Shown here: one piece after another, positions 6,715 through 43,665 of the stretch
How positions within the stretch are numbered: position 1 is the stretch's first letter
How the letters are laid out: every line of letters begins with the position of its first letter
Program-made: the position numbers and the translations under genes
Notes under the pieces: generated by a model
Seen by the model: the letters and a program-made list of their open reading frames with translations, nothing else
The model's database searches: none
What the model was told of the DNA's origin: nothing
DNA from: an uncultured Hyphomicrobiales bacterium
Lineage (GTDB): Bacteria > Pseudomonadota > Alphaproteobacteria > Rhizobiales > Beijerinckiaceae
Assembly (NCBI GenBank): GCA_903847605.1
Contig: CAINED010000024.1
Location: 62,001 to 126,000, forward strand
Direction: 5' to 3'
DNA: 64,000 bases

Positions 6715-6840
6715 GCCTCGTCCTTCGAGACGCGCTTTTGGCGGCTCCTCAGGATAACGTCTTGGTGGCTCAACTCACGGAAACTTTCATGGTGAGGAGC
6801 AGCGCGTAGCGTAGCGTAGCGTTGCGTACCGAACCACGAG
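6715..6840. repeat. REP-like intergenic repeat (CTCGTCCTTCGAGACGC / GGCTCCTCAGGAT / ATGGTGAGGAGC / CCACGAGG) with internal tandem TAGCG units
   Basis: Arms recur in inverted form near 62750-62865; tandem gcgtagcgtagcgtagcgttgcg at ~6804-6825. Confidence 0.6.
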
Positions 6841-6990
6841 GGCAAGCGACGATCGGCGTATATTCAAACGACATCGAACAAAACGCTTCCGCTTGCAAAG
6901 CAACAATCCGGAGCACAGGCTATGCCCAGTTATGTCGGCGCGCAGACATCCCTTGCGCCTCCGCGCTCATGAGTGTTGACAAGCCTGCAT

Positions 6991-7032
6991 TTGACAAACC
7001 CGACCGCCATCCCGTATGTTCTCTTTTTGTTC
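6991..7032 (+). promoter_or_regulatory. Predicted SOS promoter: TTGACA-N18-TATGTT overlapped by a GTTC-N7-GTTC LexA box (7018-7032)
   Basis: TTGACA 6991-6996, TATGTT 7015-7020, GTTCTCTTTTTGTTC 7018-7032; ATG at 7051. Confidence 0.75.
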
Positions 7033-7050
7033 ACGTCAAAACGAGAGCAC

Positions 7051-7716
7051 ATGGACCTTTCCGGCATGATAGACGACGACAGGAAAGCCCTCGCGCGGAT
7101 CGTCGCCGGGCTGTTCGCGCTTATCGGTTTGGGCAACGGTCATGCGTCCCAACGCATCGCACGAGCCGTCCATAGCGCCATCGTTACTGTGCTGCGTCCG
7201 GCAGAATCTGCCGTGCGGCGGCTGATCTATCTCGTGTCCCTGACCATCCGCGCGAAACCCACACTGACCAGGCCCATGCCTTCAGGGATCATTCGTACCG
7301 GCGCAGCAAACGCCCGTCCTGCTTTCCGGCTTTTCGATCCGCGCCTGCGTCTCGTCCGCAGAGCGAAAACGGCCCGCGCGACTCCCCGCATATCTTTTTT
7401 CGGCGCAGACGCAGTCCGCAGTAATGACCTCATCCGCGCAAACAAAGACGCGCCAAAAGACGGCGAGATCGAAGCCGCCAACCTCCTGCGCCGGCTCGAA
7501 GCCATAAAATATGCGCTCGACGATCTGCCGCGTCAGGCGCGCCGTCTCAGACGAGCCCTGCAAAGGCGCAGCAAAATCCCGCGCCTGAAATTGCAGGGGG
7601 CGCTCAGACCCGGCTATCCGCCGGGACATCGCATCAGGCGTCGACATGAAATCGACGACGTCCTGCAACGATGCCACAGCTTCGCGCGCGAGGCCCTGCC
7701 GCCGGATACGTCGTGA
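7051..7716 (+). CDS. Hypothetical protein, predicted LexA-regulated
   Basis: MDLSGMIDDDRKALARIVAGLFALIGLGNGHASQRIARAVHSAIVTVLRPAESAVRRLIYL..; Arg-rich C-terminal half; starts 18 nt after the LexA box. Confidence 0.65.
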   Translation: MDLSGMIDDDRKALARIVAGLFALIGLGNGHASQRIARAVHSAIVTVLRPAESAVRRLIYLVSLTIRAKPTLTRPMPSGIIRTGAANARPAFRLFDPRLRLVRRAKTARATPRISFFGADAVRSNDLIRANKDAPKDGEIEAANLLRRLEAIKYALDDLPRQARRLRRALQRRSKIPRLKLQGALRPGYPPGHRIRRRHEIDDVLQRCHSFAREALPPDTS

Positions 7717-7841
7717 CGCCATCGAGTAGTGAGTGGCGAATAGTGAATAGCGAAGTCGCGACATCGGCGCGCGCATACGCATGTTCGCATTCCAGCCACT
7801 TGCAAAGCGCGAAGCTGGATGCCGGGTTCCGCCAAAGCCCG

Positions 7842-7863: not shown

Positions 7864-7967
7864 TGCCCTATGTCCGCCCCGGCAATGTGGAGAGATTGCG
7901 CCGGCCCCGTGCTAAGCCGCGCCTCGAAGGACGAGGTTTTGTCAGCTTCGATCTTTGCTCTCGCCAC

Positions 7968-15945: not shown

Positions 15946-17124
15946 ATGGAATGCTGGTATTTCACAGAGATGCCCTACCCCTTTCTGCCGCCGGCTTCAG
16001 AGATGACGACGCATTGGGTTTCGCTTTCCAACCGACTTTTCGATCCGAAGGTCGGGGCAGACCTCTACAATCGCTATCTCGACGAATACATGATGGCGGA
16101 CGAAGCGGGCCTTAACCTGATGGTCAACGAGCACCATCAGACCGCGACCTGCATCAACTCGACAGCGCCCCTGACGCTCGCCATTCTCGCGCGCCAGACC
16201 AGCAAGGGGAAACTGCTCATCCTCGGCAATCCCGTGGCCAACCGCAGCGATCCCATTCGCATCGCCGAGGAGATGGCGATGGCCGACTGCATCTCGCGCG
16301 GACGCGTATCGTCCGGCTTCGTGCGCGGCGTGGCGCAAGAGTCCTTCGCGGCAAATTCCAATCCGACGCAAACCGTCGAGCGCCTGTGGGAAGGCATCGA
16401 CCTCGTGCAGAAGGCCTGGACGACCACCGATGGCCCCTTCAACTTCGAAGGAAAATTCACCCACAAGCGCGCCATCAATCTCTGGCCGCGTCCCTATCAG
16501 ACGCCGCACCCGCCGATCTGGATCACCGGTTCGAGCGACGTTCCCGCGATCAGGCGCGCTGCATCGCGCGGCTTCGTATTTGCGACATTTCTCCAGCCCT
16601 ATATGAAAGTGCGCGCATTATTCGAAGCCTACCGGTCGGCCTACGCGCTGAACGGCCAGCCAGGCGAAGGCGGATGCGCGTTCATGCCGCTCGTCTATGT
16701 CGCCGATACGGAATCGGAAGCAGAAGCCGGGATGAGGGAACTTGTCTGGTACCTGCACGCCAAGTCGGAACCGCAACTGGGCAATCCGCCCGGTTATATA
16801 CCCATCGAGACGAATGTGCTGGCCTTGAAGGGCGCCTATGCCGGCCGCACCGCGGCCATGCGGGCGGAGACGCTCGAAGTCCAGCGCGAGCAAGGCGTCG
16901 TCATGTACGGCACGCCCGATCAGGTCGTCGCGCAGATCAGGCGCTTTTACGAGCGCGTCGGCGGCTTCGATCACCTGTTGATGATGATGCAGGCAGGCTT
17001 TCTCGATCACGAGCGGACCTGCAGAAACATTCGCCTGTTCGCGAAAGAATGTTATCCGCTGATCAAGGATCTCGCACGCACGCAGCCGTTCGGAGGCAAC
17101 GCCGTCAAAGCTGCAAGCGGGTGA
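15946..17124 (+). CDS. LLM class flavin-dependent oxidoreductase
   Basis: MECWYFTEMPYPFLP..NLMVNEHHQTATCINSTAPLTLAILARQTSKGKLLILGNPVANRSDPIRIAEEMAMADCISRGRVSSGFVRGV. Confidence 0.88.
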   Translation: MECWYFTEMPYPFLPPASEMTTHWVSLSNRLFDPKVGADLYNRYLDEYMMADEAGLNLMVNEHHQTATCINSTAPLTLAILARQTSKGKLLILGNPVANRSDPIRIAEEMAMADCISRGRVSSGFVRGVAQESFAANSNPTQTVERLWEGIDLVQKAWTTTDGPFNFEGKFTHKRAINLWPRPYQTPHPPIWITGSSDVPAIRRAASRGFVFATFLQPYMKVRALFEAYRSAYALNGQPGEGGCAFMPLVYVADTESEAEAGMRELVWYLHAKSEPQLGNPPGYIPIETNVLALKGAYAGRTAAMRAETLEVQREQGVVMYGTPDQVVAQIRRFYERVGGFDHLLMMMQAGFLDHERTCRNIRLFAKECYPLIKDLARTQPFGGNAVKAASG

Positions 17125-41697: not shown

Positions 41698-43665
41698 TCA
41701 GGCCGCGTCTGTGCCGAATTCGATCACAGTGCGCGCCGGTGTCTTCCCAATGAGTCCTGAGAGCAAGATTCTTGCCGTATTGTCGAGCTTGCCGAAGCGC
41801 GGCGAAAACACAGTCTCCTCGACTGTGACTTTGAAAAAATCCGGCGCGATCAATCGGAACAACGCTGCGCCGCCGGGGTCGGCCCGATCATGCAGGGAAA
41901 TGGCGCTCCCCGATATTTCCGCGCGGACATGCGGCGCACAAAGAAATGCAATTTCGACTGCCTTATCTCCATCAATCCCTTCGAGGCTGTCGATTATGGT
42001 GAATCCCGTCGCCGATCCCATGATTTCGCGCCTGTGCGTGACGCCGGCCCTTGCTTGGTAACCATCGTGTTCACCCGCTACGCTCCAGGTTTCGCCTGCC
42101 TTGAAATCAAGCAATCTTGCACGCGCTTTTGACGACCAACTGAAGGCTGCTGAAGGTTCGCTTTGCGAATATCCTGGCAGCGAAAGCGTGTTGTGCGCTG
42201 GCGATGCACGCAACGCGTTACGCCTGCTTTCTCCCGAGTGATAAAGCCATGTTCCCGCATCGATGAAGACAGGCTTCCCGTCGAGTGAAAGCCAGATGGA
42301 CAGAGCATCGGCATGACCGTGCGCGGCAAGAGAGAGATAGCCGAGCGGCCCGTGATCGAACACGAGATGAACGTCATGTACACCGATGTTTTGCCGAAGG
42401 ATCGTGTAGCCACCGTCGGGATAGGCATTGAAAGCGACATTCGCATCGACTTGCATTCGCTGCGCATGCGCGCCGAAAAGAGCTTCCCGGAAGTAGCCGG
42501 GAACAATACCGCGCGATTGCCCCCTTTCGCATAAAGCCGCAACGCAGGCAGCGACGGATGCCGCATAATGGGGCTCGTCGACATGCGGCGCGAGGAGCGC
42601 CCGTCCCTCGTCGTCATCGCCGATGGCAGGGATATTGCCGCTGGAATCCTGCAGAACCGTCAGAAATTCAGCGCCTGCATGCAGACGACCGATCGTCTGC
42701 GAAGAAAACGGCTCGCCCGCAAACTTCCCAAGGAGCGCGCCGAAAGCGATCAACTCCATTGTAAATGCCTGATAGGTCGGAGACTGCTCGCCGCCGACGC
42801 CATCGGGATAAATCTGCAACAGTGTTTCCCTTTCCATGATTTCGCGGCCATATACCCGCCAGCGATGTGCGTGTGAATGACCGGGCAAAAGAAGTCCCGC
42901 GCAATAAAGGCCGATCCCCTCGGCGACGCGATGATTGTTCGCGGAAGAATAAAGAGAAGGCAGCGCTTCCAGCATGTTCGCATGGGCGATGGTGAAGGTT
43001 GCCAGACGCCCGGCATCGTCGCGCTGCAGGCCATCGGGTCCGAGCGCCGCCACCAACAAGGTAATAGACACGAGCCTGAGGGATAGTTCGATGCCAGAAA
43101 CCCAATTCACGCCACTATAAGGCGGGTTGGCTTCCATCCAGGATTGCAAACACGCCAGACACCACTGCCGCGCGGCAGCGGCTTCGTCTCCATCCGACGC
43201 AATGATTGCAGCCAGCGGATGCAGAATTTGTAGCCGGTTCGGCTCCCAAACAAATTTTACATCGCCAAATGGACGGGTCGCAGAGGGAGTCGCGCTTGTC
43301 GAGCGCACATCCACAGCAAATGCTGACACCCCTACCCCCGGCCAATTGCGTCCCGAAACGGGATCGCGATGCCAGAGTTCTGCAATCCGGCGTTCATCCC
43401 GTTCCCGGCTCAATTCGGGATCGACGCCGAGAAAGCGAGCGCCTTTTAAGACTTCATCAACCGTACCGGTCCTCGCCGTTCGCAGCCTGCCCCGGAGATC
43501 GGCAAGATCGGCTAACGCGCCGGCGTTAACGGCGCTAAACGCTTCCCAGCCGCCGCGCATACGCGCGAGCTGCTTCTTCCTCACGAGCTCCTTGAATCGG
43601 TGGAGGATTTCCGCAGGGCTCATCGCAGCGAGGCGCGCAGCATAAAATTTCAGTCTGCCGCCCAT
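41698..43665 (-). CDS. Heparinase II/III family protein
   Basis: GLYCAGLLLPG..DHGPLGYLSLAAHGHADALSIWLSLDGKPVFIDAGTWLYHSGESRRNALRASPAHNTL. Confidence 0.9.
   Translation of the reverse strand: MGGRLKFYAARLAAMSPAEILHRFKELVRKKQLARMRGGWEAFSAVNAGALADLADLRGRLRTARTGTVDEVLKGARFLGVDPELSRERDERRIAELWHRDPVSGRNWPGVGVSAFAVDVRSTSATPSATRPFGDVKFVWEPNRLQILHPLAAIIASDGDEAAAARQWCLACLQSWMEANPPYSGVNWVSGIELSLRLVSITLLVAALGPDGLQRDDAGRLATFTIAHANMLEALPSLYSSANNHRVAEGIGLYCAGLLLPGHSHAHRWRVYGREIMERETLLQIYPDGVGGEQSPTYQAFTMELIAFGALLGKFAGEPFSSQTIGRLHAGAEFLTVLQDSSGNIPAIGDDDEGRALLAPHVDEPHYAASVAACVAALCERGQSRGIVPGYFREALFGAHAQRMQVDANVAFNAYPDGGYTILRQNIGVHDVHLVFDHGPLGYLSLAAHGHADALSIWLSLDGKPVFIDAGTWLYHSGESRRNALRASPAHNTLSLPGYSQSEPSAAFSWSSKARARLLDFKAGETWSVAGEHDGYQARAGVTHRREIMGSATGFTIIDSLEGIDGDKAVEIAFLCAPHVRAEISGSAISLHDRADPGGAALFRLIAPDFFKVTVEETVFSPRFGKLDNTARILLSGLIGKTPARTVIEFGTDAA

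Follow-up and report, generated by a model that had tools for sequence, protein, structure and literature searches.

The usual view of an SOS regulon is of single-copy repair genes forming a core, with a few extras attached. SOS-linked small toxins of the TisB and DinQ type are membrane peptides, short and hydrophobic, that are paired with RNA antitoxins. Insertion sequences and REP/RAYT are multicopy families whose members are dispersed through a genome. In Alphaproteobacteria, GTTC-N7-GTTC is the published LexA motif (PMC3323433; PMC12700426), and the Caulobacter proteins SidA (29 aa) and DidA are both small inner-membrane proteins (PMC4211646). The window, i.e., the whole 64-kb stretch of DNA analyzed here, contains a gene with a box of this type at its promoter. 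No description of the gene family could be found, and searches of a literature library gave no account of such a multicopy LexA-controlled family. Taken as a whole, the locus is reasonably probable to be one of many dispersed copies of a single-gene cassette that is under LexA control and encodes a putative nucleic-acid-binding SOS effector. Judged from sequence comparison, the cassette is multicopy; the control of its copies and the nature of its product are graded separately below.

Promoter, operator and product of the window copy

The elements of the window copy all lie on the forward strand and are as follows:

6991 to 6996, forward strand: -35 hexamer TTGACA, at approximately the 5' edge of the amplified unit, where homology to the paralogues of the same genome begins
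7015 to 7020, forward strand: -10 hexamer TATGTT, with an 18-nt spacer from the -35 hexamer
7018 to 7032, forward strand: LexA-type operator GTTCTCTTTTTGTTC (GTTC-N7-GTTC), which overlaps the -10 hexamer and is of the box type found at recA, lexA, the ComM-type gene and the radical-SAM gene
7051 to 7716, forward strand: coding sequence of the 221-aa basic helical protein (P0001), with an ATG start, a TGA stop at 7714 to 7716 and a C-terminus ending in PDTS
6989 to 7718, forward strand: inferred cassette of promoter, operator and gene, about 730 bp with approximate edges, a unit that occurs 11 times in the genome at separate places

The end of the operator GTTCTCTTTTTGTTC is separated from the ATG at 7051 by 18 nt. 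An earlier reading of this DNA from its letters (the sequence-only reading) had described the promoter, a perfect GTTC-N7-GTTC over its -10 hexamer and a 221-aa open reading frame, and all three are present as it stated. In the other ten copies of the same genome, the spacer between the -35 and -10 hexamers is 16–18 nt in eight and 12–13 nt in two.

The 221-aa product has a pI of 11.7, a net charge of +25 and 37 arginine residues, and had correctly been called Arg-rich. According to AlphaFold2, the protein (mean pLDDT 84.6, pTM 0.79) and a second family member (mean pLDDT 80.7, pTM 0.74) have five helices in common and a middle stretch that is modeled with low confidence, and the first helix bears a short hydrophobic stretch. 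The one hydrophobic segment of the sequence-only reading is present but weakly hydrophobic, as the largest 19-residue Kyte-Doolittle mean is 1.35 and no segment is of transmembrane grade. The membrane association that had been proposed from it finds no support in a helical protein of this charge, nor does anything specifically suggest the division inhibitor that was offered along with it as a possible role. The PDTS tail is conserved in the family, and the invariant residues include E52, R56, R57, D96, R148, R165, and R186.

Neither model has a fold match in the PDB up to an E-value of 10, and no viral match was convincing. Searches by sequence in Pfam, NCBIfam, PHROGs, and PDB returned no relative, which agrees with the earlier statement that the product belongs to no recognized family. 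Weak Pfam, PHROG, and PDB hits were set aside, being single-member, two-member, or above any sensible cut-off. From the charge and the helical fold, the simplest inference is that the product may be a nucleic-acid-binding effector, an assignment that we put forward tentatively.

Copies of the cassette and their probable exchange between sites

A protein search finds 11 dispersed copies of the family on nine contigs of the window's own genome, and these copies are 53–73% identical to the window protein over nearly its full length. Among the congeners, G012 has 32 match places, 18 of which are full length and the others mostly cut by contig ends, G019 has five match places and G010 has three; no family member was found in the other 57 relatives searched. 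In a profile scan of public genomes, 114 stretches encoded the protein, and 79 distinct loci were retained from these. The loci are mostly in Rhizobiales MAGs, with multicopy sets in Rhizobiales besides those above, and with further loci in Neomegalonema, in a few isolates, and in one short match on a contig labeled as Burkholderiales. The occurrence is patchy (4 of the 37 genomes sampled from the same genus and 7 of the 398 searched across the order), although genome-wide counts such as these come from searches, and those of the profile search, which scores a capped number of candidates per genome, are possibly lower bounds with uncertain absences. Sampling of the order and the class places the family in few genomes, and neither phages nor plasmids nor viral contigs gave a homologue.

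The copies of the own genome are homologous approximately from the -35 hexamer to the stop codon, and the flanks beyond are unrelated, indicating that the amplified unit consists of promoter plus gene. In the G264 group, the homology runs a few tens of bases beyond the stop. The 17 tested G012 copies group in a single clade (SH-aLRT 100), and a separate clade unites six of the own-genome copies, so that amplification is lineage-specific. Values of dN/dS among paralogues range from 0.10 to 0.71, with medians of 0.20–0.39, and thus point to purifying selection on the proteins. Some copies are broken or fragmentary (e.g., on C348 of G019, where the match is in two pieces in different frames).

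No transposase or recombinase family was recognized for the product in Pfam, NCBIfam, or PHROGs, nor as a PDB fold match. Terminal repeats and target-site duplications were not seen by eye at the ends of the own-genome and G012 copies. A clean empty site was sought for both the window copy and site A (below), and relatives yielded the flanking genes but never the two flanks joined. No neighbor gene recurs besides large common families, and apparent recurrent neighbors were discarded because they belonged to such families or were the gene itself read in another frame.

Several short repeats were observed around the copies. Apparent interspersed palindromic repeats of the CCTCGTCCTTCGAGACGCG type lie on either side of the window cassette (6716–6845 and 7918–7936), and parts of them recur in many genomes of the genus; as cassette ends they were rejected, since they are probably common interspersed Rhizobiales repeats. 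Short repeats of the GAATAGTGAATAGCGA type lie directly 3' of the window gene (7725–7760), with similar ones 3' of the L005 and L009 copies. The promoter is surrounded by an inverted repeat, TTCCTAT / ATAGGAA, in copies of the G264/Aestuariivirga-type group (L035, L043, L062, L064, and others); the right half overlaps the ribosome-binding site, and the repeat is possibly a second operator. In many copies of this group, including L047, L051, L087, and L098, a palindrome of the CCGTATACGG / ATCCGTATACGGAT type lies 3' of the stop and may be a terminator or the end of the unit. The G012 copies tend to have one of two recurrent downstream types, CCTCGCGTGC...GGCGGGGCTATTGGCGC or AACCCGG...CCGGGA, the groups being L003, L014, L017, and L020 versus L007, L011, L026, and L071.

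Five sites are common to related genomes. At site A (L072 and L082), the flanks are conserved, at 76–90% just 5' of the -35 hexamer and at 88–100% per 60-nt block from about 40 nt past the stop, and the cassette between them is about 63% identical. Each occupant of site A is nearest (84–85%) to copies elsewhere in its own genome, and the site suggests that the entire cassette, including its promoter, was replaced or underwent ectopic gene conversion; it rests on two MAG contigs, one of which has just some 200 nt before the gene, and mis-joins can result from repeats. Among 37 genomes of the site A genus, only two matches run from the downstream flank into the cassette. Non-identical copies likewise occupy the syntenic sites B, C, and D and the L097/L111 site. 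There, the upstream flanks cease to match at a distance of hundreds of bases or more, and for this reason site A alone serves as the main evidence. From these alignments, exchange between sites appears likely.

LexA-type boxes in the family and in the predicted host regulon

A perfect box precedes 63 of the 66 members of the box-carrying clades, and the remaining three have one mismatch. By genome, the box is perfect in 11/11 copies of the own genome, 3/3 of G010, 4/4 of G019, 15/17 of G012, and 11/11 of G264. The sequence-only reading had named conservation of the LexA box upstream of homologues as a check on itself, and in the box clades this conservation is what was found. Box columns carry 1.7–2.0 bits of information and most of the surrounding columns are poorly conserved. 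Because synonymous sites are strongly diverged (median dS among paralogues of 0.5 in G012 and 1.0 in the own genome), conservation of the box does not merely reflect recent descent. Many divergent natural paralogues with conserved operators make up a ready data set on the constraint of the LexA operator. On the other hand, all five Neomegalonema members have one box mismatch, and the box is absent (0/7) upstream of distant homologues that are present in one or two copies in isolates (Oricola, Ahrensia, Zhengella, and Oryzicola); SOS control is therefore not universal in the wider family.

The own genome has one lexA, which encodes LexA_DNA_bind and Peptidase_S24 domains and is preceded by the box GAACACTTGACGAAC. 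The box of its recA, GAACAAAAAAAGAAC, and that of the paralogue at C36:31484 are exact reverse complements. A ComM-type (Mg-chelatase/ChlI) gene has the box GTTCCTGAATTGTTC, and a radical-SAM gene, possibly an additional SOS gene, has an upstream LexA-type box, GTTCCTTATTTGTTC (L143 1501–1515; G000 C50:69454). A gene pair read by eye as imuA-imuB, which Pfam did not confirm at the cut-off used, also carries a box. The SOS promoter proposed in the sequence-only reading is strongly supported by a conserved operator of the same type as that before lexA, recA, and other SOS-type genes, and the box-carrying copies of the gene family are very probably under SOS control, as far as their upstream regions can tell.

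Taken by itself, the bare GTTC-N7-GTTC box is no more than chance would give, and the case rests on comparison. The window has three perfect matches versus 2.03 expected, and the 5.34-Mb genome has 147 versus 104 for the reversed pattern. What makes the box significant is its T-rich core, its position at the promoter, and its conservation. The sequence ATGTTCNNNNTTTGTTC occurs nine times in the own genome and zero times reversed, and 9 of the 14 GTTCN5TTGTTC sites in the own genome (5.3 Mb) are family copies. For the strict pattern ATGTTCN4TTTGTTC, all 17 matches in G012 are at family copies, the reversed control has no match in 19 genomes, and family-free genomes have one to seven matches. 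That the box is a chance match and the open reading frame an ordinary gene without an SOS link would be in keeping with the roughly two perfect boxes expected per 64 kb; a perfect box at the promoter position of 11/11 paralogues, its recurrence in 63/66 members across the box clades, and the empty reversed control of the strict pattern make this highly improbable. The two other perfect GTTC-N7-GTTC matches of the window (16529–16543 and 42358–42372) are without the T-rich core and are probably due to chance. Elsewhere in the genome, no obvious target gene accompanies a strong box of the LexA type that lies close to the end of a contig (L146 1501–1515; G000 C66:42384).

Possible function of the product and comparison with known systems

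As a LexA-controlled cassette, each copy would have its own sigma-70-type promoter, the -10 hexamer of which is overlapped by an alphaproteobacterial LexA operator. In undamaged cells, LexA is predicted to bind and repress all of the copies, and RecA filaments would bring about LexA self-cleavage, upon which the copies would be released from repression at the same time as recA and the rest of the SOS genes. The effector could then act in the damage response on the nucleoid, on repair intermediates, or on the replication or transcription machinery. New copies would arise when, in a given lineage, promoter and gene are duplicated together into an intergenic site, and existing ones could be replaced through ectopic gene conversion, i.e., recombination of one paralogue with another.

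Other functions have been weighed against this one. An SOS-induced division inhibitor that, like Caulobacter SidA, holds the divisome until repair is complete, acting on FtsW/FtsI/FtsN, with many copies supplying a strong dose, would account for the SOS control and for the short hydrophobic stretch in the first helix, and since SOS division inhibitors are, to our knowledge, unrelated between lineages, the missing homology is no obstacle to it. However, a protein of 221 aa with a pI of 11.7 and no transmembrane-grade segment is unlike the Caulobacter examples, and we know of no checkpoint gene that is present in tens of dispersed copies, so that this role seems quite improbable. The same SOS control, together with paralogue diversification and patchy distribution, would also suit an SOS-induced toxin, growth-arrest, or anti-phage protein that is released from repression upon DNA damage or phage attack and whose diversity reflects an arms race. 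This too is a doubtful candidate, as the gene has no antitoxin or recurrent partner gene, PADLOC gives nothing beyond one weak match (E-value 0.018) in one of 42 members, selection is overall purifying and not diversifying, and tens of lethal copies under a single repressor would be costly.

A selfish single-gene element, the protein of which would drive the copying or exchange of its own cassette with its activity tied by LexA to the recombination-rich SOS state, would explain the patchy occurrence, the lineage-specific bursts, the unrelated flanks, the exchange at a fixed site, the want of a partner gene, and the decay of some copies. It is nevertheless unlikely, given that the protein belongs to no recognized nuclease, recombinase, or transposase family, that terminal repeats or a target-site duplication were not seen, that no member was found on a phage, plasmid, or viral contig, and that ordinary RecA-dependent recombination between paralogues would account for the exchange. 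Somewhat speculatively, the family may even stand for a new class, i.e., a self-contained SOS-switched cassette in tens of dispersed copies, exchanged as a unit from one fixed chromosomal site to another and dominating the LexA regulon of its host, with a basic helical protein, lacking any detectable known relative, that possibly promotes its own spread during the SOS response; we regard this as unlikely.

The preferred reading, a LexA-controlled cassette for a nucleic-acid-binding effector, bears on how SOS regulons are composed, in that most of the strongest predicted LexA sites belong to copies encoding one uncharacterized protein (9/14 in the own genome and 17/17 in a relative). If the copies are indeed induced, the damage response in these bacteria would be dominated by an uncharacterized, very basic protein, a new component of the response, and a unit of promoter, operator, and gene would be able to amplify without a recognizable transposase.

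Like TisB and DinQ, the product is a LexA-controlled small protein with a presumed non-repair function, but it exceeds them in length, is very basic and, going by hydropathy, is not a transmembrane protein. With insertion sequences and REP/RAYT, the family shares scattered intergenic copies, lineage-specific bursts, and unrelated flanks; in contrast to them, it has no recognizable transposase or terminal repeats and consists of promoter, operator, and one gene under purifying selection. SidA, which is under LexA, and DidA, which is SOS-independent, are likewise small damage-controlled genes outside the repair core (PMC4211646), whereas the family protein is 221 aa long, basic, helical, multicopy, and without a convincing transmembrane helix. 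A further likeness is to the alphaproteobacterial LexA regulon (e.g., that of Caulobacter; PMC12700426), with which the family shares the type of operator overlapping a sigma-70-type promoter, in a host genome where lexA, recA, and other genes have the same box. It departs from that regulon in being multicopy, with 11 to at least 18 dispersed copies per genome and with 17/17 of the strict-pattern matches in G012.
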